In this document: piece by piece, positions 1-64,000 of the stretch
Layout of the letters: every line of letters begins with the position of its first letter
Numbering within the stretch: the stretch's first letter is position 1
Virus record (IMG/VR): IMGVR_UViG_3300050821_000642
Span: 1-64,000 of that record
Source: a virus
Length of the DNA: 64,000 nucleotides
Reading direction: 5' to 3' (one strand)
The notes under the pieces: generated by a model
The model's input: only the letters and a program-made list of their open reading frames with translations
Database searches by the model: none
Told to the model about the DNA's origin: nothing
Position numbers and translations under genes: made by a program

Positions 1-24
1 TAACGCGAGAGTATGAGGACGCCT

Positions 25-303
25 ATGGTCAGTAAGAACCCGCCGAGCAAAAGGAACTACAAGCATGAATACGCCGAGTATCAGGGCAAGCCCGAGCAGA
101 TTAAGCACCGTGCGGAGCGTAATGAAGCGCGCCGAGAGGAGACTAAAAAGCTGGGTCATGCTCCGTCTGGCGATGTGGCTCATATTAAGCCGCTTGCAGG
201 AGGAGGACGGAACAAGTTGAGCAACGAGCGCGTTGAGTCTATAGCCAAAAACCGTTCGTGGCGTAAAGGTCAAGTTGGCTACAAAGTTCCCATCGACAAG
301 TAA
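25..303 (+). CDS. Small basic HNH-like phage protein
   Basis: A 92-aa, highly charged protein. Its middle, DVAHIKPLAGGGRNKLSN, resembles the D-x-x-H-x-x-P-x-x-x-GG-x-N core of small HNH-type proteins found among late genes of podophages. The usual second histidine and any zinc cysteines are not visible, so nuclease activity is doubtful. The ATG at 25 has GAGG at a good distance; an in-frame ATG at 13 is the alternative. It ends in a TAA that is also the first three bases of a palindrome copy (301-316). Confidence 0.6.
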   Translation: MVSKNPPSKRNYKHEYAEYQGKPEQIKHRAERNEARREETKKLGHAPSGDVAHIKPLAGGGRNKLSNERVESIAKNRSWRKGQVGYKVPIDK

Positions 304-317
304 CTCAGGAGAGTAAG

Positions 318-1328: not shown

Positions 1329-1589
1329 ATGCCGAAGATACTGGACCGTCTGGTTGGGCAGTTGGAAGCGAAGGGCAAACCTAAGTCCTCTGCCTTTGCT
1401 ATCGCCACCAAGGCGCTCCAGAAGTCGGGTAACCTCAAGCCCGGCACGCAAGAGCCAACGGCCAAGGGAACTAAGCGCGGCGAGATGACGCCGGGCGAGC
1501 GCGCCAAGGATCGGCAGGCAAGTTACTCTGGTGGGAAACCATCGGACTTCAAGTACAGCAGCAAGACCAACCGTGCGAGGAAGACATGA
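1329..1589 (+). CDS. Small basic conserved phage protein
   Basis: An 86-aa protein rich in Lys, Ser and Thr. The C-terminal part (GERAKDRQASYSGGKPSDFKYSSKTNRARKT) resembles a family of small basic proteins in podophages whose role is not known. No membrane segment. ATG preceded by AAGGAAG. The TGA stop overlaps the next ATG (ATGA), indicating translational coupling. A weak palindrome copy lies within the gene at 1523. Confidence 0.65.
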   Translation: MPKILDRLVGQLEAKGKPKSSAFAIATKALQKSGNLKPGTQEPTAKGTKRGEMTPGERAKDRQASYSGGKPSDFKYSSKTNRARKT

Positions 1590-3314: not shown

Positions 3315-3824
3315 ATGGCGCAAGCACCACAGACCCCGAGCCGTCCGCCGCCGCTGACGCGGGGGCAGATGGACAATCCCAATGCGGCAAGGGAGGTTAC
3401 TCGCGAGGGTAACGGCAACGGACCCCCCAAACTGTCTCAGCGGGAGACGTTCAAGCAGCGTATGGAGGAGCAAGCGGCAGCGTTCAAGCGCACCGACGAC
3501 GCCGCGTACGAGCGCGCTACGATGGGCGTGGGCGATGACGAAGACCTGCGCGACAAGCTGTTGGCGCTGGGTTGCGACGTGACCCGCGCCAGCCCGGCAA
3601 GGGAGCAACCGCTTCCCGACGCAGTGCCGGGACTGACCACCACGACCGGCGCGCATGGCTCGCCTATCGACCCGACCACGGCGGCGGTCCCCGCTCCCGA
3701 CGACAGCGAAATGGTTGTCCGTCGCCGGGGGTTTCCTACCGTGGGAAGCGGCAGGGAGGGCGGTGGCCCGGAGAAGCGTTGGATGAAGCGCCAGAGCCAA
3801 GACGCAGTTGCTGCCGAAGAGTAA
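3315..3824 (+). CDS. Polar, probably disordered protein of unknown function
   Basis: A 169-aa protein with no membrane segment. It is Pro/Gly/Glu/Arg-rich, with a possible helix at about 38-78. A palindrome copy at 3397 is translated as REVTREGNGN. It is the last gene before a strong hairpin (3833-3861) and so probably ends the left-hand late transcript. Confidence 0.6.
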   Translation: MAQAPQTPSRPPPLTRGQMDNPNAAREVTREGNGNGPPKLSQRETFKQRMEEQAAAFKRTDDAAYERATMGVGDDEDLRDKLLALGCDVTRASPAREQPLPDAVPGLTTTTGAHGSPIDPTTAAVPAPDDSEMVVRRRGFPTVGSGREGGGPEKRWMKRQSQDAVAAEE

Positions 3825-3939: not shown

Positions 3940-4599
3940 ATGAAGAGATTTCTACTGAGCGCGGCGCTGCTTGCCGCAGTCGGGGTTACTCCCGTGAGTG
4001 CGGCAACCCTCGGCATCGAGGTGTTCGACAACGGCACGTTGATCGACAACATTTCGGGGGTCACCACCGGCGCGGCCTCGCTCACCGCCAACGACGCCAA
4101 CTTCGCCAACATCACCATCAGCGCTCAAGGCTCACCCATCCTGCCGAATGCGGACTTGTCCAGCGTCACCCTCGACGCCACTGCGGCGGCAGGCTTTACC
4201 GGCGAACACACGCTGACGGTCGATGTTCTGCAAGGGAGTGTGACCGGGCATGGAGGCACGCTCTCCACCTTCACGGTCAACGGTCTGGTCAACGACCCCG
4301 GCCCGACCACCGAAAGTACTTTCGCTGATGGAGCGTTACTCGCTTCGCACGTCTTCCCGGTTGGGTTGCTCGATGGTTCTTTCGGGCCTGTCGCTGCCGG
4401 GGTTGGTGCGTTCTCTTCGGACGAAATTCAGTTTGCGGTGGATTTCACGGCGGCGCGGCAGTCGTTCGGCGGCAGCGCGCAATTGACGACCGGCGTGCCG
4501 GAACCGTCCACGTGGGCGATGCTGTTGCTGGGTATGGGTGGATTGATGTTCGTCGCGCGTCGTCAGAAGAGCCTCAATCGGCTTAACGTCGCGATCTAA
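3940..4599 (+). CDS. Secreted PEP-CTERM sorting-domain protein (phage cargo)
   Basis: A 219-aa protein with a Sec-type signal peptide (MKRFLLSAALLAAVGVTPVSA) and a Ser/Thr/Gly-rich body without recognised catalytic motif. The end is a classical PEP-CTERM signal: VPEPSTWAMLLLGMGGLMFVARRQ, that is, PEP, one transmembrane helix, then Arg residues. In the known system a host exosortase (EpsH/XrtA type) cleaves such proteins for export to the surface or extracellular matrix. No exosortase is seen here, so the host must supply it. Bounded by its own promoter and terminator, it looks like a moron changing the host surface. A palindrome copy (3986) lies in the signal-peptide region. Confidence 0.85.
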   Translation: MKRFLLSAALLAAVGVTPVSAATLGIEVFDNGTLIDNISGVTTGAASLTANDANFANITISAQGSPILPNADLSSVTLDATAAAGFTGEHTLTVDVLQGSVTGHGGTLSTFTVNGLVNDPGPTTESTFADGALLASHVFPVGLLDGSFGPVAAGVGAFSSDEIQFAVDFTAARQSFGGSAQLTTGVPEPSTWAMLLLGMGGLMFVARRQKSLNRLNVAI

Positions 4600-5045: not shown

Positions 5046-5356
5046 CAGTTACCCTCCTGAGTAAGGAGACGCAACGCCTTGAGGCGCTGCATCCCTTCGA
5101 TCAACTCCAACTCTGCCGGGGTGTCCATTGCCCCGGCCCACGTCGCGCTCATGTCAGGTAGTGGTAGATCAGGTGCAGGACGAACGGGAGGATTAACGCC
5201 GCTTGGTAGAACGCGTACCGGGACGCTCGCCCGCGCATATATGCCACAACGTTGCGGATATGGATAATACCAGCGACTATACTTATGGCAAGCGTAAACT
5301 GGTTGAGCGTGGGCATAGATTACCCCCGTGAGTAACACGGCAGCGAGGGTTCTCAC
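5045..5356 (-). CDS. Small exported protein with signal peptide
   Basis: A 103-aa protein starting at GTG 5356. A hydrophobic N-terminus (about 3-18, ending AHA) is followed by a Cys/Tyr/Pro-rich stretch (VYACHKYSRWYYPYPQRCG), a Pro-rich linker and a C-terminal helix. The two Cys could form a disulfide in the periplasm. No obvious lipobox. Similar small CHKYSRWYYPYPQRC proteins occur in alphaproteobacterial phages, as far as I recall, without known role. A palindrome copy (5320) encodes LLTGV within the signal segment. Confidence 0.6.
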   Translation of the reverse strand: MRTLAAVLLTGVIYAHAQPVYACHKYSRWYYPYPQRCGIYARASVPVRVLPSGVNPPVRPAPDLPLPDMSATWAGAMDTPAELELIEGMQRLKALRLLTQEGN

Positions 5357-5583: not shown

Positions 5584-5602
5584 TGGTTACTCTCCTGAGT
5601 TA

Positions 5603-8551
5603 TTATGGGACGTTAGGTTCAAACTTTCCGTGGGCTATGATGTACTCAAGCGTCTCCTCTAATACGGTGCCGGTCGCCTCGATCACCCACGAGTTTTCTT
5701 TAGCGCCAGCCATCTCCGTGCCAGCGCCGATGACGACGTTCAGCATTTTCGCGCTGAGCCGTTTCTTCATTGCCGCTTGCAGGTTTGATTTAGGTCGCCC
5801 CGTCCGCTTGCACCACGAAGTCAGGGCGCTATCGGTGATACGCAATATGAGCGGGCTACCCGATAGCTGCACCTCAAGCGTCCCCCAACTGAAATTCGGC
5901 GGCTTGAAGTTGATGATCTTAATGTCCTTGCTTGGCTTGCCCGCACCCATTTGTGTCTTGTTAAGGATGACGGTGTTGCGTGGCAGCTTCTCGTTGAGGA
6001 ACGCGCCCAACGTACTCACGAGAGCAGTGTCAGTGCCGAAGTCGCTGGGATCGTCCGCCATCTCCTGCTTCATACGGCGGAACTCGTCGTACATATACGC
6101 CTTCATTACGTCGATGGGGAACTTGCAAAACCCTAGCTTGTTAGCGAGGTGAGCGCCCAACAAGATTGTTGCGATGGCGTCAATCCAATAGCGCTCGATC
6201 TTAGGATCAGCGCCTAGCTCTTCTGCGCACTGCTGTTGCGTGGCGACCAACGCCTTGCTGATCTTGGTGTGGTTCTTGCCAAGGAACTCTGCGTACTTGA
6301 GGCCGATCCCGCCAAAGTTAAAGTGCAAGTCCGTCAGGTGTCTGTTGACAGCGTAGGCAAACTCTTTCTCGGTCTTTGGCAAGTCGATGGCTTGCATCTC
6401 AAACATGCGCAACCACGACGCGTCTGTGCCTTTATCCTCTTGCCGTACGGCATCGACAATGGACCCGTTGGCGCAGTACCCGCACAGCGTGCGAAACTCT
6501 TTCACCTCTCGCATCGCGCCCATACGGTTGGCGCGGCCCTTCTCGCGCCCGCCCGTGAGTTGGAACGCCAACTCGGTCATCGCCTTCATCTGCTTCTCGC
6601 CCTTGATCTCGTCATAGAACAGGGGCAAGTGGCGCAACGTGGCGCACTTGGCGAAGGTATAGATTACGGTGTCGCTAAGACCACCCACCACTGGTTTCGA
6701 CCACGCGGCTTGCCCAAACAAGAGCGCGGTTGATTTGCCAATGCCGGATTTACCTGAGACTAACCCAAGGAGTAACCCGGCATGCCCGGTCATGTCCACC
6801 AAGGGAGAAGCGAACGTCGCGGCTCCCATGCAGCACAAGTCAGGGCGTTCAGGCGCCAAGAGGATATTCGCCAGCGCTCGCCACGGCGCTTCGTCGCCAA
6901 GCACCCGGTAATCCTCAACGCCATCGCCCGGACGGTTCGATTTGAACTCACCGGCAGGGGAGAAAAACCTTCCGGCGAAAGCAAAGCCCATCTCGTTTCT
7001 ATAGTCTTGGCTCCAACCGAAGGCTGGCACGTCGATCAAAGTTTCCTTCTTATGCTGCAAGAGCTTGAGGTAGTTTGCCATGAACATTCTCGAAAGTTCG
7101 GGCTTGATCGTGAGCGGCATTGCTTCAGAAGCAAGGGCTTTAGAGAACCCGATGTTGTCGGCAGTGATGGTGCTGTCGAACCGCTTAGTGACGATCTTCT
7201 CACCCTGTATGGTGTCAAACGAAAATCGGAATGGCTTGCCAAACTCTACGCTGGCTGACCCCGGCAGAATAGGGTACTCAAATACGAGGAACTGCTCCAT
7301 GCCGCCTTTGTCGTCAGGCTTTGAGGTATAGATCAGGTCGTCGTTGCCTCGGTAGTAACCTGTCGGCAGGTCTATTGAGTTTGGGCTGGGGTTTCCTTGG
7401 AAGCCAGCGTGAGTACGATTGTGGGGCTGTTTATATTGAACTGATAGTGGGGTGGTGCCGAGAGCAAGATGCGGACAGGTGGCGCACTGGGGTATGCCAA
7501 GGGCATTGATGGTGGCGCACTTCTCGGGGCCAATGCTTGGGCGGTTTGCCCGCGCTTGGAGAGCCACCGCGAGCTTAGCATCTGTATCCGCCTCGCTGTA
7601 ATAACTACTGCCTCGGGATAGCCGGTGAGCAGTTGCACTAGGATCATCACAGTGGCAAGCAAGACCAACAGCAAGTTTCCACTGGGGTTCACCGACGAGA
7701 TTAGCGCCAGCTTTATCCAGCGTTTCTTTAATGAACGGGCAGAACCCCGCCACCACATCGATGTTCGCAGGCGCATAACCACTCTTCATGCCGCCAGACA
7801 GATCGTCGTTGACGCCCGACTTACTCTCTTGAGTACGGCTTCCCGCCCCACCCCCCGGCACCGCGCCTACGATCTTGTACTGGGACAGTCCCTTCTGCAT
7901 ATCTTTTAGCGGAATATGCGTGGTATTGCAATAGAGCATGGTGACCGGCTTGGCCTCAACGTCAGGCCCGCCCTTGAAATTCCACGTCCCCGGCACCCTT
8001 AGCAGGCGGCACGGGTCGTTAGTGCATTGCCGGTCGAACAACACGCCATGCTGGGTCGCCGCCGTCGATAGCTGCGCGGCCATGTGCCGGAACTCACGCG
8101 GCTCAAACTCGGTGTCGAGCGTCCAGTACACATGCACGCCGCCGTTGCCGCTCGCGACGATGATAGTTGGATACGGCAGGCCACACACGAGAGTAAACTT
8201 TTTCAGCGCTACCAGCACCGCCTTATGGTCGGGGTAGGCGCTCTCCTTGACGTCCATATCCATGTAAAGGTTCTTGCAGGCGACGAGGTTTGGCTCCTGC
8301 CGTACCGCCTTCGGGTATATCCGGCCCATCTCCCCGGCGTTACGGAATGCGCCTTGCGCGAGGTACACGCACTGCCCGCGTGACGCCCAGTAGTTCGCGT
8401 CTTCCAGCGCCGCACGGATGCTCTTGTGCGCATTGCCGGGGAAGATAGGCGGGCGACCGTCCTGAAACAATAACCGTCGATGAATGCTGAACCAAGTATC
8501 CTTGTCGGCAAGGGCTACCTGCGTCAGAAAAATATGGCCCTCATTGTCCAC
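5603..8551 (-). CDS. Replicative primase-helicase: AEP primase fused to DUF927-type helicase
   Basis: A 982-aa fusion expected to prime and unwind phage DNA. The N-terminal half shows archaeo-eukaryotic primase motifs: YMDMDV (Asp98, Asp100), SGNGGVHVYW at about 134-143 and DPCRLLRVPGTWNFKGG at about 178-194. A Cys cluster (CATINALGIPQCATCPH) lies near 345-360. The C-terminal half has a DUF927-like ATPase with Walker A SGKSGIGKST near 605 and LPLFYDEIKG near 643, and a C-terminal domain that may bind DNA. It is the largest early gene and is followed by a palindrome copy (5587). Another copy (7821) encodes TQESKS. Confidence 0.85.
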   Translation of the reverse strand: MDNEGHIFLTQVALADKDTWFSIHRRLLFQDGRPPIFPGNAHKSIRAALEDANYWASRGQCVYLAQGAFRNAGEMGRIYPKAVRQEPNLVACKNLYMDMDVKESAYPDHKAVLVALKKFTLVCGLPYPTIIVASGNGGVHVYWTLDTEFEPREFRHMAAQLSTAATQHGVLFDRQCTNDPCRLLRVPGTWNFKGGPDVEAKPVTMLYCNTTHIPLKDMQKGLSQYKIVGAVPGGGAGSRTQESKSGVNDDLSGGMKSGYAPANIDVVAGFCPFIKETLDKAGANLVGEPQWKLAVGLACHCDDPSATAHRLSRGSSYYSEADTDAKLAVALQARANRPSIGPEKCATINALGIPQCATCPHLALGTTPLSVQYKQPHNRTHAGFQGNPSPNSIDLPTGYYRGNDDLIYTSKPDDKGGMEQFLVFEYPILPGSASVEFGKPFRFSFDTIQGEKIVTKRFDSTITADNIGFSKALASEAMPLTIKPELSRMFMANYLKLLQHKKETLIDVPAFGWSQDYRNEMGFAFAGRFFSPAGEFKSNRPGDGVEDYRVLGDEAPWRALANILLAPERPDLCCMGAATFASPLVDMTGHAGLLLGLVSGKSGIGKSTALLFGQAAWSKPVVGGLSDTVIYTFAKCATLRHLPLFYDEIKGEKQMKAMTELAFQLTGGREKGRANRMGAMREVKEFRTLCGYCANGSIVDAVRQEDKGTDASWLRMFEMQAIDLPKTEKEFAYAVNRHLTDLHFNFGGIGLKYAEFLGKNHTKISKALVATQQQCAEELGADPKIERYWIDAIATILLGAHLANKLGFCKFPIDVMKAYMYDEFRRMKQEMADDPSDFGTDTALVSTLGAFLNEKLPRNTVILNKTQMGAGKPSKDIKIINFKPPNFSWGTLEVQLSGSPLILRITDSALTSWCKRTGRPKSNLQAAMKKRLSAKMLNVVIGAGTEMAGAKENSWVIEATGTVLEETLEYIIAHGKFEPNVP

Positions 8552-9804: not shown

Positions 9805-9835
9805 AGTCTGTCCTTTCGTTGGTTACTCTCGTGGG

Positions 9836-10722: not shown

Positions 10723-10929
10723 TTAAACCAATCCTTCCTTCTCCACCAACCACTCAGGCGCGCTAATCGTGACCATCGTGCCTCTGGGATAGTGGTTGTC
10801 CTCCCACTCGATCTGCGACTTCGGCAACCACACGCCGCCCTGTAGGTTGCCGGTGATGTTCACCAGAATGGCGCTGTCCGTCTGATGGAGGTAGCAGACT
10901 TCCACCTCCACCATGTCGAACTTACTCAT
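10723..10929 (-). CDS. Small conserved phage protein, unknown function
   Basis: A 68-aa beta-rich protein: an N-terminal strand region, then GGVWLPKSQIEWEDN and a C-terminal SAPEWLVEKEGL. This WLPKSQ...PEWL...KGL pattern is common in small proteins of phage replication regions, with no assigned role. The start lies within the overlapping tandem palindromes at 10922 and 10935, which supply GAGAG/ATGAGAG ahead of it. Confidence 0.65.
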   Translation of the reverse strand: MSKFDMVEVEVCYLHQTDSAILVNITGNLQGGVWLPKSQIEWEDNHYPRGTMVTISAPEWLVEKEGLV

Positions 10930-10934
10930 GAGAG

Positions 10935-13926: not shown

Positions 13927-13940
13927 GTTACTCTCTTGAG

Positions 13941-14186: not shown

Positions 14187-14200
14187 GTTACTCTCTTGAG

Positions 14201-18330: not shown

Positions 18331-18345
18331 TGTTACTCTCCTGAG

Positions 18346-18678: not shown

Positions 18679-18692
18679 CTTACTCTCCTGAG

Positions 18693-19517: not shown

Positions 19518-19534
19518 CTTACTCTCTTGGGTTA

Positions 19535-19874: not shown

Positions 19875-19888
19875 CTTACTCTCCTGAG

Positions 19889-44508: not shown

Positions 44509-44523
44509 AAGGGCTAGATAGCC

Positions 44524-51503: not shown

Positions 51504-51521
51504 CTCACGAGAGTAACTAAG

Positions 51522-53000: not shown

Positions 53001-53018
53001 CCCACGAGAGTAACCCTG

Positions 53019-56000
53019 ATGGCAATGGGCAAACACTATGGATCGTTCGGCAAGGGCTTCGCTGACGCCCTGATTGCAATGATCAAGCTGTCCTACATGC
53101 GTGACTACTACAAGTCGCGCCGCGACTATTACGAGTCGCGCGCCGCCGCTTATGGCCAGCCAAAGCCCGGCAGCAAGGCGGCGCTCGACGCCGAAGGCAA
53201 TCGGATACGTCTTGACGCCGAGGGTCGCCCCCTGCCGGATACAGCCTATGGCGGCGGCAAGCAAGAGACGCCCGCAGCGGGCAAAGTGCCAATGGCCGAT
53301 ATGGTCAAGATGGCGGAAAAGGCCGGGTTCAAGGGTGACGACGCGGCGCACATGGCGGCGCTAGCGCAGGCTGAGAGCGGCGGCAATCCCGGCGCAGTTG
53401 GCAAGGCGGGCGAGATCGGCCTGACCCAGATCAATCCGCACGCGTGGCCTGCTGAGATGGTAAGCGCTGCGCGTGATCCGCAGGGTGCGTTTAACGCCGC
53501 TTACAAGGTGTATCAGCAACAGGGCTGGAAGGCGTGGTCAACCGATCCGTCGTCACCCAATTTTACTCCCGGCAATAATGGGATGCGGTTTTTCGACGCG
53601 GCGCGGGGATACGTTACCGGGGAAAAGCCTACGACCAAGGTAGCGGCTACACCGGATACAGCTAAGCCAGTCAAGCCGGGAACGGAGAAGACCAAGGTCG
53701 GTGCAACGGGTGGGCCAGACGTAAAGGTTGGCGGTAAGACCTACCACACTGACGCCGATGGCCGTATTCTTGGCGATGACGGCAAGCCGACGCAGGCGCA
53801 AGCTGGACCTTCTCCCGGCTCCTATCAGGTGGCGGGCGACAGCACTATTGCCTTGTCGCCGGAAGAGGCAGAGAGGGCGCGGGCGGACTTGGAAGCGCAT
53901 CGAGTCGCGCCGAGCGACACGCGAAGCTTGGACAGCCCGATCAAGCAGCACCCCGAACGTACGGGTGGCGTCGATACACAAAGTGCGCCCGATCCGGTTG
54001 CAGTGCCGGATGAAAGTTCAGAGCGACCACCGTCACTGACGCCGCCACCACCCGAACGCGGGCCGGAATTGGCGGGGCAACGACAGTGGAGTGAGGAAGA
54101 CCAACCTGCGCTTCCTCCGGTGCCGTCACCGAGGCCGATCCAAGGTCCGCCCCAGCGCACGGGTGCGCCGCCGAACGTAGGGATTACGCCATCATCTGTG
54201 CCTGAGCCAGTATCGACGCAGAACACGGTGCGCCCCGAACCGCCTGTATCTGTGCCTGTGTCGCATACGCCAATTGGTGGCGGCGAAGGCAATAGGATGG
54301 AGGGGCCGAGGGGGACGTCAGTGGCGGACGCGCCGTCGCGCGCCGCGCAGCCGGTTAGCGCCACGCGGGCGATACCCAGCACGCCGGTTACCCCAGTGAG
54401 TAACCAACCCAGCGGCGGGCGGTTCGTGCCAATTGAGCGGCCCAATCTCGATCAGGCGGGTGGCGCGCAGGGGCGCAGCGGTGGCCCGCCGACGATGACG
54501 GCGCTCAATCTGGGTAGCCTGTTTGGTCCGAACCCGCCCCTCTCACAACGTGGCGGGGGTGGGGGCGGGGGCGGGCAGGCTGCGCCTTCGTCGCCGCCAC
54601 AGGGGCAAATTCTGTCGCCACCGGGGGGAGGGCCGACGCCTTACCCCGGCCCGACGATGAACCCATCTGGCAATATCGTTTTGTCGGAAGGGCAGGGCGC
54701 ACGCGGCGGGCAATCGGTGCCTGCTCCCATGCCGCCTATTCGTCCTGACGATCTGGATGTTGCCACGGCGTCACGCAAGGGCGGGCCGATCCAGCGCTTT
54801 AATCGGGGTGGTATCCCTACCCGTCCGACGATAGGGTTAGCGGCAGGCGGGGATGCGCCTGCGTCTTCGCAATACCCATCCTATACGCCAAAGGCCGCAG
54901 CGGCTCAGCCGGGGCTGCAAGGCAATGTACTGGCGGCGGACGAGTATATGACCGGCTTGCCCGGCATGACGGCAGTCGATCTGCACAACCCCAACTCAAT
55001 GTACTATACCTCTTATGGTCCGGGGCAAGGCGGGATCGGCGGGCAGACTTTGACTACTGATTGGTCACGGATGACCCCGGATCAAAAGGCGCAATATGCC
55101 GCAATGACGGCTGGCACATGGCAACCGCCAGCGGCAACCCCCGCTCCGACGCCTGCACCTGCCCCCGCCACGCCGACTGTAATCAATCCGCCATCGGTGC
55201 AGAACATCACCAACATGCCTGCGGCGACGACGATCACTGACCCGACCACGACGACCACCACGGGTACGCCGGGAGTACCCAACGCCATCCAAGCCAAGAG
55301 CTACGATCCAAACGTGGACGCCACCACTGGGGCCGGGTTTGCCAACACCTCTAACACAGGTGGAACGAACTACAGCGTTGGCACCGACGACAAGCTTAAC
55401 CAGACTACCCCCGGTACGATATCCGGCACGGGCGACGGTACGATCTTGTCGCGTGGGGGAGGCCCGATCCCACGCCGCCAAGCTTTTGCCCGAGGCGGCA
55501 TTCCCTCGCGTCCGACGCTGCGGCTTCAGGCAGGCGGCAACGCCGCCATAGCGGCGATGAACAGCCCCAGTTACATTGGCCCCACGCTACAGGGCGGTTG
55601 GCAAGGCACGCCCGAGAGCCAGCTTGCGCCGAACCAGCAGGCATGGGCCAATACCGAACAGGGTATTCTCGCGCAAGAGCTTAGCGCCGCGCATAAAGAC
55701 GCTGCCTATTGGGGCGCGGGCGGGACGAACCCGACCGGCGGCAACGATACGATGCAGTATTGGAACCAGTTGACCACCATGCCAGCCGCCGTGTGGCCAA
55801 CTACGACAACCACGCCGACACCGATTGCCGAGCCTGCGCCTACGGTACAGAACGTCGTCAATCAGGGTCAGCCCATCGTTGATATCGCCACCATCGATCC
55901 CACGGCGACCACCACCACGGGTGCGCCCGGCATCCCGAACGCGATCCAAGCGAAGAGCTACGACCCGAACGTGGACGCCACGACCGGCGCAGGGTTCACC

Positions 56001-58778
56001 AACACCTCAAGCACCGGAGGGACTGACTATAGCGTTGGCGGCGACGACAAGCTGCAAACCACCAGCGACAACCAGATATCCGGCACCGGCAATGCGACCA
56101 TTCTGTCGGCCAAGGGCGGCTCGATCCCGCGCCGGAACCGCCGTCCTCCCCCGAGGAAGAACTACACCCGCTACGATCTCGGCGGCGCGGCAGGCGATCA
56201 GTCGGGCGATGTCTCGCCGTCCGCGCTGGGCATGCCGCCCGGTCTTAGCTCCGGGGGGCAACAGCAAATCCCGCCCTATTATTACAACCCGGCGACTTAT
56301 GCTGGCGCAGGCGCACCCGTGGGCAAGGGGGTGACCCAGACCAGCGTTCCCACCTTTAGCGCTGGCGCTATCCCCTCCCTGCCGATGGCGCGCGGTGGTA
56401 CGGTGTATAAGTTTGATGACGGCGGCGATGTGCCTGACGAGAGCGCGGCGGCGATGCCCTCGCCCATTATGGACGAGATGCAGGACCAGCGCGACGAGGC
56501 CGAGGACGCGCAGCGCGATCAGGTCAGCGCGCAAGCGGCGGCGGCTCCCGGCGCGGGCGCGGGCGCGTACGATCAGGGTGGCAAGTACTTCACGCCGCCC
56601 GACGACACGGCGGCTCCCCCTGTTACTCAAGCGGGTAACCAAGATGGGCAAGCTCAGCATGGGCCGTACCGGCGCACCGACCAGCTTACGCCGCAGATCA
56701 AGGACAACGACGGCAACCCGTCGCGCGGCTTGGTTGACGCGATCTCCGGTGGGCTACAGTGGATCGCTTCGCATCTGGGGCTGGGCAGCGCGCAGGCCGC
56801 AGGCATTGCGGGCGACCCAAACACCCAGACGGCGCGGATGAACTTTTCTTCCGGCAAGCAACCGGATGGCGATGCGGTGATCTCTCATGCTGCTTATCAT
56901 GAAGCGGGCGATATCCAAGACCCGGCCAATGCGCTCAACACCGTCGAGCATAAGATCGCAGGCATGGAAGGCATGCGGTTGTGGATGCTGAACCGTGGCG
57001 ACGTGGTGGGCGCGAACAAGATGGCGGCGTCGATGATGCAATACAGCGCCATCGCCAACGCCCCTATCGGTGAAGAGGCCGCGCGCCGGTACTACGACGG
57101 CGACCTTAAGGGCGCGGTCGATGCGCTCAACGAAGCCAGCGCCAACGTGGTTGATGGCAGGCACATCGTCGCCTCTCTGGTGCCGGATGGCAAGGGCGGT
57201 CAGATGGTGCATGTCGAGGGCAGCACGCTCGATGGGCGCACGTTGTGGCAGCAGATGGTGGCTCCGCACGCCATCCTCGCGGCGGCGCTGGGGTTCAAGG
57301 ATCAGTCGTACACGTGGAAGCGCTACGAGGATCAAGCGGTCAAGTACGACCCGGAGATGAAAGCCGAGTACGACGCTCGCATTGCCGAACAAAAACAACA
57401 GCGCAAAGAGGCCGACGCGCAAGCCAAGGCCACTGCGTCAGAGACGGCGCTTGGCCCGACCGACAGGCCCTATGCGCCGAGCGCCAACGCAACCATGCCA
57501 ACGCCCGCGCAGCCGTCAGCGCCAGCGCCTACGCTGACTCCGGTGGGTGCGCCTGCCGCCCCTGCTGCGCCGACTGCGCCGTCACCCGGTCGCAGCCCCG
57601 ACACCACGACGGCGCAGACCGCCGCGCCTCCTCCCACTTCCGATGGCTCTTTATTGGCGCGGGGGCCGACCGGGCATGGCGGCGCGATCCCGTCGCAGGC
57701 CGGTCCTAACATTGCTACGCCCGACGCACAGGAAGCCGCAGCGGATACCGACTTTCAGAAGATCGCCGCTTCGCTGGACAAGCAGGAGACTGACGGCTAC
57801 GCGACGATCCGCAGTAACCATATCAGCCCCGCTGGCAATCCGATATTGGGCGGCAATGAAATCCTCCCTGCCGACCCGAACCACCCGCGCGATGCGGCAT
57901 GGCAGGCGCGTGACGCCCGTTGGCGCGAGGCGATGCAGACCGTCAACCAGACCATTGCCTCCGAAGGTCACGACCTGACGGTGCGGATCGCTTCGCAACG
58001 ACAGGCGTTGGCGCAGTCTTATGCGGCAGCGAAAGAGCAGCGTGGCGCTGAGCGCGCCGCCGCCAAGACCGCCGCTGGACAGGTCCAAGCGCAGACGATG
58101 GAGACGACGCGCGAGGAAGGGCGGCAGAAGTTTGAAACCGGCAAGGAGATGAGCAGCCGCGAGTGGGACTCGACCAAGCCGCGCGCCAGCGAGGAGGTGG
58201 AGCGGGAGATCAACATGACGCCCGACCCACAGACGCCTAGCCCGAAAGACCCGAACGTGATCATGGCGCACTCGCTGGGCTACACCGACAGCCGGGGCAG
58301 GCCGCAGATCGACCGGCTCAACAACCTTCTGACGGCGCAAGAGCAGACCGTCATGTCGCAGGCGCTGGTCAGCGGTTTTCATTACTCGCCCACCCAGAGC
58401 CTTGCGGCGGTGGCCGACATGGTGACCGGCGCAGTGACCAACAAAAACTACGAGATGTCTGGCGAGCCGTTGAGCGCCGACAAGACCTATGGCGTGCCGC
58501 GCGTTCTGGTCACGGTCAACCGGCTGAACGACAACGGCGAGGGGGTCACCAGCGGCAAGATGGCGATGCCGACCGAGGACTACCGCAACCTGAGAGGGCT
58601 GATCAAGCAGCGCGCCGCCGCCGAAGCTAAGCGCAACCAAGCCCCGCCGCCCGAGGTGGCTGCGCCGCCTAGAGGTCCAGACCCTGCGCCCCTGCCGTTG
58701 GGTCCGCAGGGCATACCCGCACGGCCAAACTTAGTGCCGCAGTTTGGTCCCCGTCTCGTACCCCGTCCAGCCGCATGA
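53019..58778 (+). CDS. Giant internal virion protein with lytic transglycosylase domain
   Basis: 1919 aa. An SLT domain lies near the N-terminus (about 95-190): MADMVKMAEKAGFKGDDAAHMAALAQAESGGNPGAVG (catalytic Glu about 120), EIGLTQINPHAW, and AYKVYQQQGWKAWS. The middle (200-1150) is Pro/Gly-rich and disordered, with a 75-aa exact-length repeat and RGGIP(S/T)RPT(L/I) motifs; the C-terminal 600 are helical. Probably ejected with DNA to open the cell wall. Palindrome copies 54388 (VTPVSN) and 56623 (VTQAGN) are inside. Confidence 0.8.
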   Translation: MAMGKHYGSFGKGFADALIAMIKLSYMRDYYKSRRDYYESRAAAYGQPKPGSKAALDAEGNRIRLDAEGRPLPDTAYGGGKQETPAAGKVPMADMVKMAEKAGFKGDDAAHMAALAQAESGGNPGAVGKAGEIGLTQINPHAWPAEMVSAARDPQGAFNAAYKVYQQQGWKAWSTDPSSPNFTPGNNGMRFFDAARGYVTGEKPTTKVAATPDTAKPVKPGTEKTKVGATGGPDVKVGGKTYHTDADGRILGDDGKPTQAQAGPSPGSYQVAGDSTIALSPEEAERARADLEAHRVAPSDTRSLDSPIKQHPERTGGVDTQSAPDPVAVPDESSERPPSLTPPPPERGPELAGQRQWSEEDQPALPPVPSPRPIQGPPQRTGAPPNVGITPSSVPEPVSTQNTVRPEPPVSVPVSHTPIGGGEGNRMEGPRGTSVADAPSRAAQPVSATRAIPSTPVTPVSNQPSGGRFVPIERPNLDQAGGAQGRSGGPPTMTALNLGSLFGPNPPLSQRGGGGGGGGQAAPSSPPQGQILSPPGGGPTPYPGPTMNPSGNIVLSEGQGARGGQSVPAPMPPIRPDDLDVATASRKGGPIQRFNRGGIPTRPTIGLAAGGDAPASSQYPSYTPKAAAAQPGLQGNVLAADEYMTGLPGMTAVDLHNPNSMYYTSYGPGQGGIGGQTLTTDWSRMTPDQKAQYAAMTAGTWQPPAATPAPTPAPAPATPTVINPPSVQNITNMPAATTITDPTTTTTTGTPGVPNAIQAKSYDPNVDATTGAGFANTSNTGGTNYSVGTDDKLNQTTPGTISGTGDGTILSRGGGPIPRRQAFARGGIPSRPTLRLQAGGNAAIAAMNSPSYIGPTLQGGWQGTPESQLAPNQQAWANTEQGILAQELSAAHKDAAYWGAGGTNPTGGNDTMQYWNQLTTMPAAVWPTTTTTPTPIAEPAPTVQNVVNQGQPIVDIATIDPTATTTTGAPGIPNAIQAKSYDPNVDATTGAGFTNTSSTGGTDYSVGGDDKLQTTSDNQISGTGNATILSAKGGSIPRRNRRPPPRKNYTRYDLGGAAGDQSGDVSPSALGMPPGLSSGGQQQIPPYYYNPATYAGAGAPVGKGVTQTSVPTFSAGAIPSLPMARGGTVYKFDDGGDVPDESAAAMPSPIMDEMQDQRDEAEDAQRDQVSAQAAAAPGAGAGAYDQGGKYFTPPDDTAAPPVTQAGNQDGQAQHGPYRRTDQLTPQIKDNDGNPSRGLVDAISGGLQWIASHLGLGSAQAAGIAGDPNTQTARMNFSSGKQPDGDAVISHAAYHEAGDIQDPANALNTVEHKIAGMEGMRLWMLNRGDVVGANKMAASMMQYSAIANAPIGEEAARRYYDGDLKGAVDALNEASANVVDGRHIVASLVPDGKGGQMVHVEGSTLDGRTLWQQMVAPHAILAAALGFKDQSYTWKRYEDQAVKYDPEMKAEYDARIAEQKQQRKEADAQAKATASETALGPTDRPYAPSANATMPTPAQPSAPAPTLTPVGAPAAPAAPTAPSPGRSPDTTTAQTAAPPPTSDGSLLARGPTGHGGAIPSQAGPNIATPDAQEAAADTDFQKIAASLDKQETDGYATIRSNHISPAGNPILGGNEILPADPNHPRDAAWQARDARWREAMQTVNQTIASEGHDLTVRIASQRQALAQSYAAAKEQRGAERAAAKTAAGQVQAQTMETTREEGRQKFETGKEMSSREWDSTKPRASEEVEREINMTPDPQTPSPKDPNVIMAHSLGYTDSRGRPQIDRLNNLLTAQEQTVMSQALVSGFHYSPTQSLAAVADMVTGAVTNKNYEMSGEPLSADKTYGVPRVLVTVNRLNDNGEGVTSGKMAMPTEDYRNLRGLIKQRAAAEAKRNQAPPPEVAAPPRGPDPAPLPLGPQGIPARPNLVPQFGPRLVPRPAA
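55254..56135 (+). repeat. Internal 225-bp repeat, two copies 657 bp apart
   Basis: 55254-55478 and 55911-56135 encode 75-aa segments, both holding PNAIQAKSYDPNVDATTGAGF and an ending close to SGTG...ATILS...PIPRR. Around two thirds of the residues agree by eye. A duplication in the disordered part of the giant virion protein. Confidence 0.8.
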
Positions 58779-58802
58779 GAGGCTTACCCACGCGAGTAAC
58801 TG

Positions 58803-61800
58803 ATGGCTGACGTAGACGCCGATCTGTACGCACCCATTCGCGGGGTCGGTCCCGATAGCGCTTCTGCGTCTACGCCTACGCCTGCGCCGCCGACGCAAGC
58901 GGGCGACGACGATCTGTATGCGCCCATTCGTGGCGCAGGCCCGCCCATCAGTCCGTCTCCGAGGGACTTGGGGCCGGTGCCGTGGAGCGACGTGGGCGCG
59001 GGCTTGGCGGCTGGCTACCACGAAGGCATGTCCGACATTGGCGGGTTTGGCTCGCGCTTCGCCGGGTCGCCCGAGATGCAGCGCTACTACGCTGACCAAG
59101 CGTTGCGCGAGCGCACACTCGGGCAACGCGACGTACAGAGCATGACCCCTGCCGGTCAGCAGGGCCGCGAGCAGGGGTTCTGGAGCCATCCCATCCTACA
59201 GGGCGCAGAGGCGGCTCCGAGCATGGCCGGGGCGGCGGCTCCCGCCATCGTGGGCGGCGCGATAGCGGGGCCACCGGGCGCAATCGCAGGCGGCGCGCTG
59301 GGGTTTGGCGCGCAGGCGGCAGGCCAGACGGCGGCGGACGTGCATGGCAATATCGCTGACGCGAACGACGCGGCGCTGCAAAAGGCCAACCCGGACTACG
59401 CCGCCAAGCGCGTCTATATGTCGGAGGCCGACGCGAAATACGCCATCGCCCAAGAGAGCCTGAACAAGACCCACGCGGCAGAAATCTCAGGCGCGCTGGG
59501 CATGCTGTCGGGCGCGGTCGGACCCATTGCGGAAATTGGCGGTTCTGGGGTAGTAGGCAAGATCGTAGGCGATAGCCTCGTGCGTAAAGCGCTCGCCGGG
59601 GGCGTGTTTGAAGGCACGAATTTAGGCGCGCAGGCGGCAGGTCAAACCGCGTTCACCGCCAAGGCCGAGCAGCAAGCAGGCACGCGCGGCGCGGTGGCCC
59701 CCGGCGAGATCGCTGAAAGCTTTGGCGAAGGCTTCAAGACCGGGGCCGAACTCTCCCTGCCGGGGGTATTGTTCCACGGTAAGACCCGGCTCCCTCAAGG
59801 GGGTGTGAGCGCCGAGCCGACACGCTCTGACACCCAAGGGTTTAAGCCGGGAGTGCGCGGCAATGCGGGCAAAGGGCCAACCACTGCGCCAACTGACGAA
59901 GCAACTACGGGGACAAAAAGCGTCCCTAGTTCACCCATCACCCCCGACATTAAGGCCGCGACGGACGGCAAGCCTATTACTCCCGTGGGTAAGCCACAGG
60001 AAACACCTGTACAACCACCCCCTCCGGTTGCACAACCTACAGGTGTGCCCGCACAGGAGCCTCAAGGAAGGCCGCCAGAGGCCCAAGTCGCTGCCGGGCC
60101 ACCACCCCCACCCCCAGCCCCGGAAGGCCAGCCAGCGCCAACCCCTGCCGCGCCTGCTGCGGCTCCCATCGATCCCGTCGCCCTAGCGGCGCAGCACGCG
60201 GAGCTTGTGGACCCAAGCCACCCACGCGATGCGATGATCATCCCCAAAGGGGCGCAAGTCCCTGATATCACTACAGATAAGTGGCGCTACGGCAATCTCA
60301 AGCTGCCCGACGACCAAGGCGTCGTCCGCTACGATCATAGTCGAGGAAACAAGTGGACTAAAGACAGCTTGAAGGCGGCGGCGAAGGATGGCACGCTGCA
60401 AGACAAGATCGACGCGCAGGCGGCGAAGCCTGCGGCAGAGTCCGTGGTAGGAGCGCAACCGGCAGCGGCGGCGGCAGAGCCTGTAAAGGCCGAGCCTGCC
60501 GCTGCCGAGGCGGCTCCCAGCCCTGCGGAAGCCCCAAGCGTAGGCGACCGGATCAAGGCCGATATCGCGAAGCAACCAGAGGATGTACAACCTAAAGGTG
60601 TACAACCAGAAGGTGCAGGGGTTACTCAAGAGAGTACGCCCCCCGACCCGCTGGCGGGCGGGACCAAGGTCGCAGAGAACAAAGCCGGGGTGGCGATCTA
60701 CCGCATGCCTGACGGCAGCTTAATGAAAGCGGGCCTTGGCAAGGACGTGAGGCCGGTCACCGAGGCGACCGCCAAGATCATCTTCCCCAAGGAGTTCGGC
60801 GGCGAGGGCTACGTCCCGGCTGAAAAATCCGAGGCTGACAAAATCCGTGAGGCGGCAGACGCCGAGGCGGCGCGGCTCAAGCTGGCGAAGGAAACGCCTC
60901 CCCCCACTGCCGAAGCGGAAGCGCCCAAGGGAAGGGTCTTGCGCTCCGAAACACCCGAGGAGCAGGAAGCCGCCGCGCGCCAAGCCGAGGCGGATCGCCT
61001 CGCTGCCGAACGAGTGGCGACCGAGCAGCCCGCCAAGCCCGTCACCCGGCAGACAAAGGAACCCGAAGAACAGAAGCCCGGCAAGAAGAGCGAGCCTGAG
61101 AAAGAGGCGATGCGCGCCTCTAACGCCGTCGCTGACGACATTGTGCGTAACAACCTGCCTCAAGCGGGCGACGAGCATGCGCCCGATCCGGCCCGAGGAT
61201 CGGGGGGCAAGGGAGCGCGCGAGCAGGTCAAGGCGCGCGTACAAAAGATGGTGAAAGAAGCCAACGACGGTGGCTTCAAATTCATGAAGATGCTCAAGGA
61301 CCGCAAAGACCCGGAGCTTGCGCACTCGGCTAGCTCTGTGTTGTTGCACGAGGCCAAGCGTCTCGCTGACATCAAGGTCGCCAAGACCTCCGACTACAAG
61401 CGCTTCTTGGATCGCGAGCGCGATCTGTTAAAGGGTGAAGCCGCCAAAGAAGGTGTACTCAAAGAGCGCCGCGCCGCAGGCAAGGAGTTCGCTGCGGCAG
61501 CGGGCAAGGGGGTCAAGGAAGCCGCCGCCGAGGATGTCGATACGGCAAGAAGGGTGGGGGAAGAAGACGTACCTGACGTAGCCGAAGAGTACGAGAAGGC
61601 CAAGGAGCGGGTTGCAGAAGAGAAAGTCGCTAAAGCTCCGGGGGAAAAACGAGAGAAGACCGACACTGAGAAGCGTGCAGAGGAAGCTGGCAAGCGCGCC
61701 GCTGAGCGAGCCAAGCAATTCGAGTTGCCCGAGGGCGCGTCAAAGGGTGATATCCTACGCAAGCTGGAAGCTGCCAAGCGCATGGCGCGCGACCAAAGTA

Positions 61801-64000
61801 TCGGTGAGGAAGAACGTGACGCCGCGATGCGGGGCGTGCAACGCCTGCAAGACTCACTACGAAGCGCGATAGAGCGCGAGGAAGCGCCGCGCGAACGGCC
61901 TACGGTTACTCACGAGAGTGATGAACCTGCCGTCAAGGGCTACTCGATGGCGACCGGGTTCAAGGTCGAAGCGCGTAGAGGCCGCGCCCCTCCTAAACTG
62001 CCGGAGCGTCCAGCACAACGGGCGCTGGCGGGTGAAGAGTACGGCGGCGAGGCGTTTGAGCACCCCGAAGAGATGGTGGGGCCGGAAACTTATCTTCATG
62101 GCGCACGTCCGACTGAGGCCGAAGGCGTCGAGATGACCGACAAGAACGGCGATAAGTTCACCGTGCATCCGTTTGAAACGACAGACGCCGAAGAATTGCT
62201 TCGAAGACATTTCTATCCAGAGTACCATGACGAAGCTTACCGCGAGCCGCTTAAACGATTGCGTGATGCGCTTTTGACAATGGCGGGCGATGTCAAAGTT
62301 TACATTGTCTCTTCGCGAGATATAGACCGGCTGTACCCCGGCGTCGAGGGCTATTACGATGGTGATAGAAACCACATCGTCTTGGATGGCAGCGCGTTTT
62401 CATCCGACGCTCCCATACACGAAGTGTTTCATGCGGCGACATATCACGCCATACGACAGAACCCCGACCTCGACAGGTTGCTGCACCGGCTGCACCTAGA
62501 AGCCAAACAATGGGCAAAACTGGACCCGGAAGAATGGGATAAAATTCATTATTTTTTCGGCAACCGCGAGGAATTTCTCACTGGATTAATGACAAACCCA
62601 GACATGCAGCAGTTGCTTAAAAAGATGAAAATCAGTTCGCAACTGGCGGGTGATATCGGCATCCCCAAGTGGCGCAAGATGACCATGTGGAACGGCATGG
62701 TCGAGCTTATTCGACAGGCGCTGGGGATGGGTAAGCGCGACGTGAGCGCGATAGAAGCCGCGATGGCGTTGAGCGAGAACTTAATGTGGCGCGATCCGCG
62801 TGGCGCAGGCATGCTGATGGGGGCGGCGGGTAAACTATCGCGTGCGCAGTTGCGCGGCTCCCGGTTAGCCAGAGCGCGTGAGCTACCCGAGCGGGCGGGG
62901 AGGGTGCGCGAGGCGACCGAAGACCCAGAGAAGGCGGGACGCGACTACGGGCGTGAGCATAAGGGATGGGTGAACAAGATCAACGACGCGGTGAAGACCA
63001 CGCTGACTGACAAGAACCCGACCTTCAAGCAAGCCGCCGAGCGCTTCGCCAGCGAGCCGCAGATGTACGAACTGCACCGCGACAAGTTTAAAGACGGAAA
63101 AAGCGATCCACTTAGGGACCGCCTCGATGCGATGCAGCAGCGCGGGGGCCGGGCTGAAGAGCTAGCCGAGCCGGGCATGCGGCTGGCGCATGAGTGGATT
63201 GGGCTAGCCGACAAGCATGGCCCCGACAGCATGGCGAAGCTGCAAGACGTGATGCGGATGGCGAACGAGTTCGGCGTCTACCCGCACCACCCGCTGGGCG
63301 AGGGGGTGAACGCGCATCTGGCGAGCGACACGCTCGACCACATCCAAGCGCGGGCGGTTCACCCGGAGATCAGCGCCAAGTTCAACGCGCTACACAAAGA
63401 TTTACAAGCGCACTTCCTCGCGCAGGACAAGCACTTCAAGGACGACCTCAACGCGATCAGAAAGCTCAACGCCAAAAACTTTATCGAGGGCATCGACCCT
63501 CCTGCCGGATCGACTACGCTGGACGTGCTGGACCGGATGCTGGCGGGCAAGCTGACCGACGCTGACAAGGCGCATTACGCGCGCTATGGCGTCGAGGGGC
63601 TGGACGCGGACGTGTTTCAGCGCCGCAAGGGGCCATACTTTCCTGCCGCCCGGCATGGAGATTTTGTCGTCCGGGCTGAGCATGACGTGCTTACGCCCAA
63701 AGGCTCCGACCGGGATTACCACGGTAATTTGTTGGAGCCGAACGTTCGAAGGTTTAATACTCGCGCCGAGCTTGAGAAGTATCTGGGTGAGGTGAACTTA
63801 CCCGCGCGAGTAAGCCTCAAATACTACTTCGACAATCCGGCAGGGGGGAGGATATATCAGGTCGATGACGGGCAGGGGGGCGTGCGCAACGTCGCTCACG
63901 ACGAGGCGGGTATTGGGTATGGCAAGCCGCAGCCTGAGTATTGGGCGACGATGCAGCACAAGCGGGTCGAGTTCGCCAAGAGCCTGAGCGAGGGGCAGGA
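58803..64000 (+). CDS. Giant polyvalent virion protein with HExxH motif, cut by window end
   Basis: Open frame from ATG 58803 to the window edge with no stop (more than 1730 aa). ADVDADLYAPIRG is repeated as DDLYAPIRG in the first 45 residues. Then an Ala/Gly-rich helical part, a long Pro/Glu/Lys-rich charged part (about 330-1050), and APIHEVFHAATYHAI (His1206-Glu1207-His1210) with YFFGNREEFLTGLMTNPDMQQLL. The last resembles metallopeptidase/polyvalent-protein domains ejected with phage DNA. Palindrome copies at 59977, 60622, 61906 and 63798 (VTQEST, VTHESD). The C-terminus is outside the window. Confidence 0.8.
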   Translation, partial: MADVDADLYAPIRGVGPDSASASTPTPAPPTQAGDDDLYAPIRGAGPPISPSPRDLGPVPWSDVGAGLAAGYHEGMSDIGGFGSRFAGSPEMQRYYADQALRERTLGQRDVQSMTPAGQQGREQGFWSHPILQGAEAAPSMAGAAAPAIVGGAIAGPPGAIAGGALGFGAQAAGQTAADVHGNIADANDAALQKANPDYAAKRVYMSEADAKYAIAQESLNKTHAAEISGALGMLSGAVGPIAEIGGSGVVGKIVGDSLVRKALAGGVFEGTNLGAQAAGQTAFTAKAEQQAGTRGAVAPGEIAESFGEGFKTGAELSLPGVLFHGKTRLPQGGVSAEPTRSDTQGFKPGVRGNAGKGPTTAPTDEATTGTKSVPSSPITPDIKAATDGKPITPVGKPQETPVQPPPPVAQPTGVPAQEPQGRPPEAQVAAGPPPPPPAPEGQPAPTPAAPAAAPIDPVALAAQHAELVDPSHPRDAMIIPKGAQVPDITTDKWRYGNLKLPDDQGVVRYDHSRGNKWTKDSLKAAAKDGTLQDKIDAQAAKPAAESVVGAQPAAAAAEPVKAEPAAAEAAPSPAEAPSVGDRIKADIAKQPEDVQPKGVQPEGAGVTQESTPPDPLAGGTKVAENKAGVAIYRMPDGSLMKAGLGKDVRPVTEATAKIIFPKEFGGEGYVPAEKSEADKIREAADAEAARLKLAKETPPPTAEAEAPKGRVLRSETPEEQEAAARQAEADRLAAERVATEQPAKPVTRQTKEPEEQKPGKKSEPEKEAMRASNAVADDIVRNNLPQAGDEHAPDPARGSGGKGAREQVKARVQKMVKEANDGGFKFMKMLKDRKDPELAHSASSVLLHEAKRLADIKVAKTSDYKRFLDRERDLLKGEAAKEGVLKERRAAGKEFAAAAGKGVKEAAAEDVDTARRVGEEDVPDVAEEYEKAKERVAEEKVAKAPGEKREKTDTEKRAEEAGKRAAERAKQFELPEGASKGDILRKLEAAKRMARDQSIGEEERDAAMRGVQRLQDSLRSAIEREEAPRERPTVTHESDEPAVKGYSMATGFKVEARRGRAPPKLPERPAQRALAGEEYGGEAFEHPEEMVGPETYLHGARPTEAEGVEMTDKNGDKFTVHPFETTDAEELLRRHFYPEYHDEAYREPLKRLRDALLTMAGDVKVYIVSSRDIDRLYPGVEGYYDGDRNHIVLDGSAFSSDAPIHEVFHAATYHAIRQNPDLDRLLHRLHLEAKQWAKLDPEEWDKIHYFFGNREEFLTGLMTNPDMQQLLKKMKISSQLAGDIGIPKWRKMTMWNGMVELIRQALGMGKRDVSAIEAAMALSENLMWRDPRGAGMLMGAAGKLSRAQLRGSRLARARELPERAGRVREATEDPEKAGRDYGREHKGWVNKINDAVKTTLTDKNPTFKQAAERFASEPQMYELHRDKFKDGKSDPLRDRLDAMQQRGGRAEELAEPGMRLAHEWIGLADKHGPDSMAKLQDVMRMANEFGVYPHHPLGEGVNAHLASDTLDHIQARAVHPEISAKFNALHKDLQAHFLAQDKHFKDDLNAIRKLNAKNFIEGIDPPAGSTTLDVLDRMLAGKLTDADKAHYARYGVEGLDADVFQRRKGPYFPAARHGDFVVRAEHDVLTPKGSDRDYHGNLLEPNVRRFNTRAELEKYLGEVNLPARVSLKYYFDNPAGGRIYQVDDGQGGVRNVAHDEAGIGYGKPQPEYWATMQHKRVEFAKSLSEGQ

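Follow-up and report, generated by a model that had tools for sequence, protein, structure and literature searches.

Why should a phage genome carry the same short palindrome about once per kilobase along its whole length? This question is raised by the window analyzed here, i.e., positions 1-64000 of the 65,878-bp virus record IMGVR_UViG_3300050821_000642, where the interrupted palindrome TTACTC-N4-GAGTAA is found in 5 exact copies, in 48 copies with at most one mismatch, in 67 with at most two, and in 80 with at most three. The array is real, specific to phage DNA, acts as DNA, and is under selection. An earlier sequence-only reading of this stretch had noticed some 70 genome-wide copies, which agrees with the 67 counted at up to two mismatches, and had judged that number to be beyond chance. 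In fact, dinucleotide shuffles yielded 10.6 ± 3.3 matches at up to three mismatches, against the 80 observed. The same reading would have given up the motif if a codon-preserving shuffle produced similar numbers, but the motif survives: 300 synonymous-codon shuffles within each gene gave 1.9 ± 1.4 intragenic sites at up to two mismatches (maximum 6), against 33 observed. When the spacer between TTACTC and GAGTAA was scanned from 0 to 12, N4 gave 67 matches and any other spacer at most 6. The six positions previously listed for exact TTACTCTCCTGAGTTA (5587, 18333, 18680, 19876, 21281, and 27322) are all correct, its reverse complement being additionally present at 301, and the perfect 20- and 18-bp copies located in the control region were found again as GGTTACTCACGTGAGTAACC (28498-28517) and CTTACTCACGTGAGTAAG (28538-28555).

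To learn how the array behaves in evolution, related contigs, most of them metagenomic, were collected by portal-based and DNA-polymerase-based scans; they are designated by G numbers, the window phage being G000. The named relatives are the Rhizobium phages RHph_TM3_14A, TM27A, TM27B, and TM29, and the portal and primase matches come from Rhizobium and other proteobacterial phages, no mycobacteriophage being among the matches listed. Every large soil relative carries its own dominant palindrome. TTACTC-N4 is found in G001, G002, and G016; G013 has TTACTC mainly with N4 and also with N3, and G010 has TTACTC-N3/4. The version TTACCC-N3/4 is carried by G003, G004, and G006; TTAACTGC-N2 by G011; CAACTAT-N2 by G034; GTTACCT-N3/4 by G021, G023, RHph_TM3_14A, and the Bradyrhizobium relatives G036 and G037; and GTTACC-N6 by G019 and G020, with further versions in other relatives. 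An alignment of the half-sites of 16 genomes shows a nearly invariant A-C core surrounded by bases that differ.

The G000 sites were mapped onto the relatives by alignment. In G016, which shares the motif of the window, a site lies no more than 12 bp away for 39 of the 52 positions mapped, against 1.5 expected, and the twelve defined bases of the aligned sites are 88% identical, compared with 73% for their flanks. In relatives with the TTACCC-type motif, the mapped place is occupied by the relative's own version in 14 of 25 cases in G003, 16 of 33 in G006, and 13 of 24 in G004, where about one would be expected, often with spacer 3 instead of 4. For example, TTACTCGGCAGAGTAA at 23453, within the ATPase gene, is replaced by TTACCCGGCAGGGTAA in G003. 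Since dozens of sites have reached a new consensus while holding their positions, a single diverging DNA-binding protein must read them all. Half-site and spacer thus switch together at fixed positions in a concerted co-evolution with one trans-acting protein, and one trans-acting, sequence-specific factor acts on DNA across the whole phage genome.

The limits of the family were also observed. The portal-only relatives HMO-2011, phiM6, CHOED, and Rollin have no such palindrome, and scans of viral contigs with the winged helix-turn-helix (wHTH) and VWA proteins gained few new loci. In the aquatic relatives, whose motifs include GTTAGC-N6 and GTTAGTG-N3, sites are fewer and restricted to part of the contig. 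Two of these loci, L148 and L166/G028, contain 9-10 copies of TTTCGGGCA-N2-TGCCCGAAA, a G+C-rich palindrome between T/A runs; these aquatic palindromes might be repeated terminators rather than binding sites.

The sequence-only reading had warned that the motif could be equally frequent in the host genome. As a host control, we have looked at two Bradyrhizobium genomes (8.7 and 7.9 Mb), in which the relatives' GTTACC-N6-GGTAAC sites (at most one mismatch) concentrate on phage contigs, with 7 of 11 and 19 of 22 sites, respectively. In Bradyrhizobium sp. 139 (G037), late phage genes run from about 25 kb to the end of one contig and early genes occupy the first 25 kb of another. The 17-bp direct repeat GGCCATGCCGTTACCTC lies at both outer ends of the phage region and a 576-amino-acid large serine recombinase is encoded at its right end. 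From the complementary gene content and the end repeats, we infer that the two contigs form one prophage. Allowing spacers of 5 or 6 and up to two mismatches, it carries 14 + 28 = 42 sites, all within the prophage, whereas the adjacent chromosome that was read (25 and 35 kb) has none. The serine recombinase, the end repeats, and the sites stopping at these ends make at least one relative probably temperate. This prophage of about 61 kb was previously unannotated (C111, 25004 to end, and C166, 1-25158; loci L354-L360), and another relative constitutes contig 42 of Bradyrhizobium genosp. SA-3 (L217).

These data bear on the idea of a host-encoded reader, such as a host regulator or nucleoid protein, the motif versions then differing with the host. 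Motif classes could indeed follow hosts, but the Bradyrhizobium sites are concentrated on the phage and absent from the adjacent chromosome, and motif distance tracks one phage protein beyond the others (see below), so that a host reader appears improbable. A host motif as such was rejected, the sites being concentrated on phage DNA in these genomes. Marks for a phage or host methyltransferase or restriction enzyme would account for bipartite palindromes, which resemble restriction sites; however, such targets would not be expected to vary by 1 bp in spacer within one genome, to tolerate mismatches, to be evenly spaced, or to keep their positions, and we regard this explanation as very improbable. 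The earlier proposal of a phage-wide DNA-binding system is strongly supported, given that the sites are phage-specific and position-conserved and that their sequence switches in concert between relatives.

We have searched as well for the enzymes of integration and partition. A tyrosine integrase was not found in the window phage nor in 18 of the 19 other records searched, the exception being G017, which has one; a serine recombinase was not found in any of the 20 searched records, including the window phage. In RHph_TM3_14A (MN988472.1), the product of 42239-45322, annotated as a putative integrase, is a homologue of the primase/helicase-like protein encoded at 5603-8551 of the window, and thus this label is no evidence for integration. 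Proteins of the ParA/ParB family were absent from the 16 records searched, while positive controls matched. A partition or centromere function, as known for ParB/parS and Noc, would likewise involve palindromic, numerous, genome-wide sites, but in addition to the missing proteins, the copy number is far above that of parS clusters and sequence and spacer diverge freely, leaving such a role with a very low probability.

The placement of the sites offers further clues. Gene calls were made with a simple script, start positions being approximate, and classes were counted on the 66 non-overlapping sites. Start-associated sites number 26, compared with 5.5 expected under random placement, while 30 are intragenic and 10 are other intergenic or gene-edge sites. 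Thus, about 40% overlap ribosome-binding sites or stop codons and about 45% are intragenic. The typical start-associated site reads TAACTCAGGAGAGTAA on the coding strand, its TAA being the stop codon of the upstream gene and its AGGAG the Shine-Dalgarno (SD) sequence, with the start codon following after 1-7 bases (e.g., 18333-18348 and 51501-51516). Such an arrangement, the SD sequence being included in the 26 of 66 sites directly before start codons, together with the 1-nt spacer variation seen in several genomes, could suggest that the transcript forms a hairpin covering the ribosome-binding site and recognized by an RNA-binding regulator. However, mismatches oriented with transcription comprise 161 G-U and 158 A-C in 14 genomes; without a bias between them, RNA pairing is not selected. 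Moreover, the stem is broken in the stop-codon variants (TAACTC..GAGTAA), the intergenic control region holds perfect copies, and other copies lie deep within genes. The RNA hairpin was rejected by the mismatch test, and an RNA-level element is hardly credible.

The sites are also more evenly spaced than random. Their density is about one per kb, and the coefficient of variation (CV) of the gaps is 0.69 in the window, compared with 0.97 ± 0.11 for random placement; the evenness persists in a control that takes the start-associated sites from real gene starts (P=0.001). G016, G006, G011, G003, and RHph_TM3_14A are likewise more even than random, and most large soil relatives show gap CVs of 0.57-0.78 vs. 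0.97 (P<=0.001 with the control drawn from gene starts). The sole gap below 150 bp separates the two perfect copies, 39 bp apart, in the control region, which is flanked by the leftward early genes and the rightward late genes. The orthologous region of the close relative G002 has four perfect copies in steps of 50, 21, and 21 bp. Promoter scans of the control region gave scores not above those of shuffles.

This regularity raises the possibility that an abundant phage protein folds, compacts, protects, or packages the genome as a phage nucleoid, with little direct effect on transcription. The spacing of most large soil relatives, even with the gene-start control, the coverage extending through the late structural genes, the absence of an integrase from most members, which makes a lytic role plausible, and a candidate binder that is an early protein with disordered, charged ends all speak for such an organizing role. 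On the other hand, the perfect copies of G002 lie close together, at 21-50 bp, in its control region in the manner of operators, sites are in excess at gene starts, and the part-contig arrays of the distant aquatic relatives do not suit it. We consider genome organization a serious possibility, although a doubtful one.

Which protein reads the sites? Motif distance was compared with protein distance in 16 genomes, taking the mean of the other universal proteins as control. Without this control, common descent makes motif distance correlate with most proteins. Under it, the strongest correlation is that of the 25925-26932 product (partial r 0.65, p=0.0005), and only the VWA protein (partial r 0.49) and the 66-amino-acid protein encoded at 22838-23038 (partial r 0.41) remain besides it. 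This leading candidate, an early protein, is predicted to be all-helical with disordered N-terminal parts (pLDDT 75.7) and its ends are disordered and charged; its homologue in the Rhizobium phages (RHph_TM3_14A/TM27/TM29) lies at 18372-19100. The sequence-only reading had singled out three helix-turn-helix (HTH) proteins to be tested for binding, but they are not the best candidates. The XRE-type protein (18346-18678) and the wHTH protein of 17878-18330 were rejected since they are missing from several genomes carrying the array. The wHTH protein of 14616-14933 is present in all 16 genomes and its gene lies close downstream of the DNA polymerase gene in the cases inspected; AlphaFold predicts a confident but generic winged helix (pLDDT 88.5) with no significant Foldseek match, yet its partial r of 0.11 (p=0.22) is not significant, and it was set aside too. 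Judging from these comparisons of sequences, the likeliest binder is the candidate product of 25925-26932, with the 14616-14933 protein as the runner-up.

In about 40 aquatic loci (L203, L178, L158, L166, and others), a small variable HTH domain is fused to DUF6378 directly upstream of the DNA polymerase, and in locus L204 it is fused instead to DUF3310 beside the DNA polymerase. The HTH-DUF6378 proteins were discarded as binders because L148 and L166 share an identical motif and have different recognition helices.

The reading that we favor, with moderate confidence, is that a single dimeric protein, encoded by the phage and sequence-specific, binds the palindromes and thereby controls the whole genome; at 28.50-28.56 kb they would be operators, elsewhere stoperators or silencers. 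The binder would be a dimer because the site is palindromic. The early promoter region would have its true operators in the clustered perfect copies at 28.50-28.56 kb. The remaining copies, about 64 isolated sites at one per ~1 kb, would act like stoperators: the bound protein would block or attenuate RNA polymerase, thereby silencing the genome or pacing its expression. Copies lying over a stop codon, the SD sequence, and the start region could form a roadblock that shuts off the next gene.

Several observations weigh against this control of transcription. Neither an integrase nor ParA/ParB was found in the window phage and nearly all of the relatives searched, so that lysogeny, the usual reason for stoperators, is unsupported for the window phage. 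Palindromic sites cannot be oriented with transcription as the stoperators of L5 are, and the even spacing into the late structural genes fits DNA organization equally well. As for the 25925-26932 protein, a structure search found no match among solved structures and no DNA-binding fold is recognizable in it; besides, it shares one early region with the VWA protein and with 22838-23038, and linkage may contribute to its correlation. A bolder and rather unlikely proposal is a phage nucleoid-like system: the early protein 25925-26932 would read palindromes that are evenly spaced and conserved in position, at one per ~0.7-1.4 kb genome-wide, organizing and gating the genome in lytic growth, with specificity classes diversified across soil and possibly aquatic phages.

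The sites of the window and the candidate binder genes are collected in Table 1.

Table 1. Palindromic sites and candidate binder genes of the window (SD, Shine-Dalgarno; aa, amino acids).
Coordinates	Strand	Feature	Remarks
301..316		site, 1 mismatch (TAACTCAGGAGAGTAA)	at stop codon of 13-303(+)
1523..1538		site, 2 mismatches	
3397..3412		site, 1 mismatch	intragenic
3986..4001		site, 2 mismatches	intragenic
5049..5064		site, 1 mismatch	
5320..5335		site, 1 mismatch	
5587..5602		site	start-associated (SD of 5353-5583(-))
7821..7836		site	inside primase/helicase gene
9173..9188		site	inside 8608-9804(-)
9823..9838		site	start-associated (8608-9804(-))
10922..10937		site	start-associated; overlaps copy 10935..10950
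10935..10950		site	overlaps copy 10922..10937
11257..11272		site	inside helicase gene
11606..11621		site	inside helicase gene; TTACCC-type orthologous site in G003, G006
13121..13136		site	inside exonuclease gene; orthologue TTACCC-N3-GGGTAA in G006
13928..13943		site	start-associated
14188..14203		site	intergenic/start-associated
14616..14933	-	second candidate binder, 105-aa winged-helix protein	16/16 TTAC-type genomes
14620..14635		site	start-associated (14201-14614(-))
15688..15703		site	inside DNA polymerase gene; position kept, sequence switched in G003/G006
16259..16274		site	inside DNA polymerase gene; position kept in G003/G006
16909..16924		site	start-associated (DNA polymerase)
17498..17513		site	start-associated
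17878..18330	-	fourth candidate binder, 150-aa protein, C-terminal winged helix	8/16 genomes
18333..18348		site	includes stop of 18346-18678(-) and SD AGGAG; 17878-18330(-) starts 2 nt away
18346..18678	-	third candidate binder, 110-aa XRE-type HTH protein	8/16 genomes
18680..18695		site	start-associated (18346-18678(-))
19216..19231		site	intragenic
19519..19534		site	start-associated
19876..19891		site	start-associated
20606..20621		site	intragenic
21281..21296		site	start-associated; includes stop of 21281-22687(-)
22307..22322		site	inside VWA-protein gene
22690..22705		site	start-associated (VWA protein)
22851..22866		site	
23453..23468		exact site TTACTCGGCAGAGTAA	inside ATPase gene; TTACCCGGCAGGGTAA at equivalent place in G003
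24338..24353		site	start-associated (ATPase)
24802..24817		site	start-associated
25721..25736		site	intergenic
25925..26932	-	leading candidate binder, 335-aa all-helical protein	near control region; 16/16 TTAC-type genomes + G017, G019, G020
26751..26766		site	inside 25925-26932(-)
27322..27337		site	start-associated
27807..27822		exact site	intergenic
28304..28319		site	control region
28498..28517		perfect 20-bp copy GGTTACTCACGTGAGTAACC	first of control-region operator pair (putative)
28538..28555		perfect 18-bp copy CTTACTCACGTGAGTAAG	39 bp from first perfect copy
28875..28890		site	control region
29124..29139		site	control region
29696..29711		site	upstream of terminase gene
31736..31751		site	inside 31634-32206(-)
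33319..33334		exact site	inside portal gene
35606..35621		site	start-associated
38718..38733		site	intragenic; position kept in G006
40064..40079		site	start-associated; position kept in G003/G006
41848..41863		site	intragenic
44408..44423		site	intragenic; position kept in G003
44990..45005		site	intragenic; position kept in G003
46183..46198		site	intragenic
47876..47891		site	start-associated
49781..49796		site	inside internal virion protein gene
51501..51516		site	stop codon + SD, start-associated; kept in G003/G006
52998..53013		site	stop codon + SD, start-associated; kept in G003/G006
53563..53578		site	intragenic
54388..54403		site	intragenic
56623..56638		site	intragenic
58784..58799		site	start-associated (2357-aa protein)
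59977..59992		site	intragenic; position kept in G006
60622..60637		site	intragenic
61906..61921		site	intragenic
62574..62589		weak site, 2 mismatches	
63798..63813		site	intragenic

Some other genes deserve mention. The VWA/metallopeptidase protein (DUF2201) of 21281-22687(-) adjoins the ATPase of 23218-24330(-), and this pair recurs in each of the 16 soil genomes compared, as it does in the majority of the distant aquatic loci that have this DNA polymerase; the PHROGs label "HNH endonuclease" for 21281-22687(-) is unsupported by Pfam. The gene at 58803-65876(+), which extends past the end of the window, encodes a 2357-amino-acid virion-type protein with a HEVFH zinc-peptidase-like motif and without polymerase motifs, whose closest family is an unnamed PHROG of 2639 amino acids. 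The giant virion proteins and the ATPase/VWA pair had prompted the idea of an N4-type virion RNA polymerase with hairpin promoters, which was rejected since the giant proteins lack polymerase motifs. The 219-amino-acid protein of 3940-4599(+) has a C-terminal PEP-CTERM motif, unusual for a phage, and homologues in several relatives.

Dispersed repressor-like sites have so far been a curiosity of a few, mostly actinobacterial, phages, and the Corndog palindromes have no known function. This kind of array now extends to a wide range of soil phages, with many specificity classes, to one prophage of a cultured Bradyrhizobium, and to four isolated Rhizobium phages. Dozens of sites switching sequence and spacer in place constitute a natural experiment on one protein co-evolving with about 60 sites, and both the role of palindromic genome-wide arrays and the existence of immunity groups in rhizobial phages become testable.

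Among the known systems, the CIBs of phiC31 are conserved inverted repeats bound by the c repressor at many intergenic places, with about 18 copies mostly in the early region. Their sequence and their phage are unrelated to the window, and the part-genome arrays of the aquatic relatives resemble them more than the window does. The SPBRE of the SPbeta prophage is also a dispersed element, predicted in silico decades before its master repressor MrpR, a protein with a tyrosine-recombinase fold, but it has far fewer sites, i.e., nine ChAP-seq peaks with a 15-bp motif (PMC10516654). The start-associated sequences (SAS) of Cluster K, named in PMC4351075, immediately precede start codons, a position shared by 26 of the 66 window sites. 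SAS are tied to the starts of translation, whereas 30 of the 66 window sites are intragenic. ParB/parS systems differ by their ParA/ParB-family proteins, found in 0 of 16 genomes here.

The stoperators of Cluster A (L5 gp71 and relatives) comprise 20-30 genome-wide sites plus operators at the early promoter, and their repressor and motif diverge together, defining immunity groups; the sites are asymmetric, 13-14 bp long, bound by a monomer, and oriented with transcription (PMC6550527, PMC9283540). The window shares with them the many genome-wide sites (67) and the paired perfect copies in the control region (four in G002). By contrast, its sites are 6-N4-6 palindromes, two to three times as many, with a flexible spacer and mismatches symmetric with respect to transcription (161 vs. 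158). The array is thus not a member of the Cluster A stoperators, although it may work similarly. Its motif diverges in concert between relatives, and the protein best correlated with it, 25925-26932, is no known repressor.

The sequence-only reading had found no matching parallel, overlooking the palindromes of Cluster O (Corndog), TGTTCGG-N3-CCGAACA, which are the closest described array and share its architecture. They occur in 34 copies throughout the genome, with unknown function; many are intergenic and about one third intragenic, without a meaningful orientation, and the phages have no integrase (PMC4351075). Both arrays consist of two inverted half-sites with a short spacer (6-N4-6 here, 7-N3-7 there) in more than 30 copies, partly intragenic and unoriented. 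However, the consensus TTACTC-N4-GAGTAA is unrelated, and kinship with the window phage was not found, the portal and primase matches listed being proteins of Rhizobium and other proteobacterial phages. The 34 copies of Cluster O are nearly invariant, denser at one end, and reported in one cluster of close relatives, whereas the ~66 of the window are more variable, evenly spaced, often overlap starts, and belong to a family of diverged motif and spacer versions with position-preserving switches. What is new in this array is its many diverged specificity classes, the switches that preserve position, the even spacing, and its spread among proteobacterial phages.

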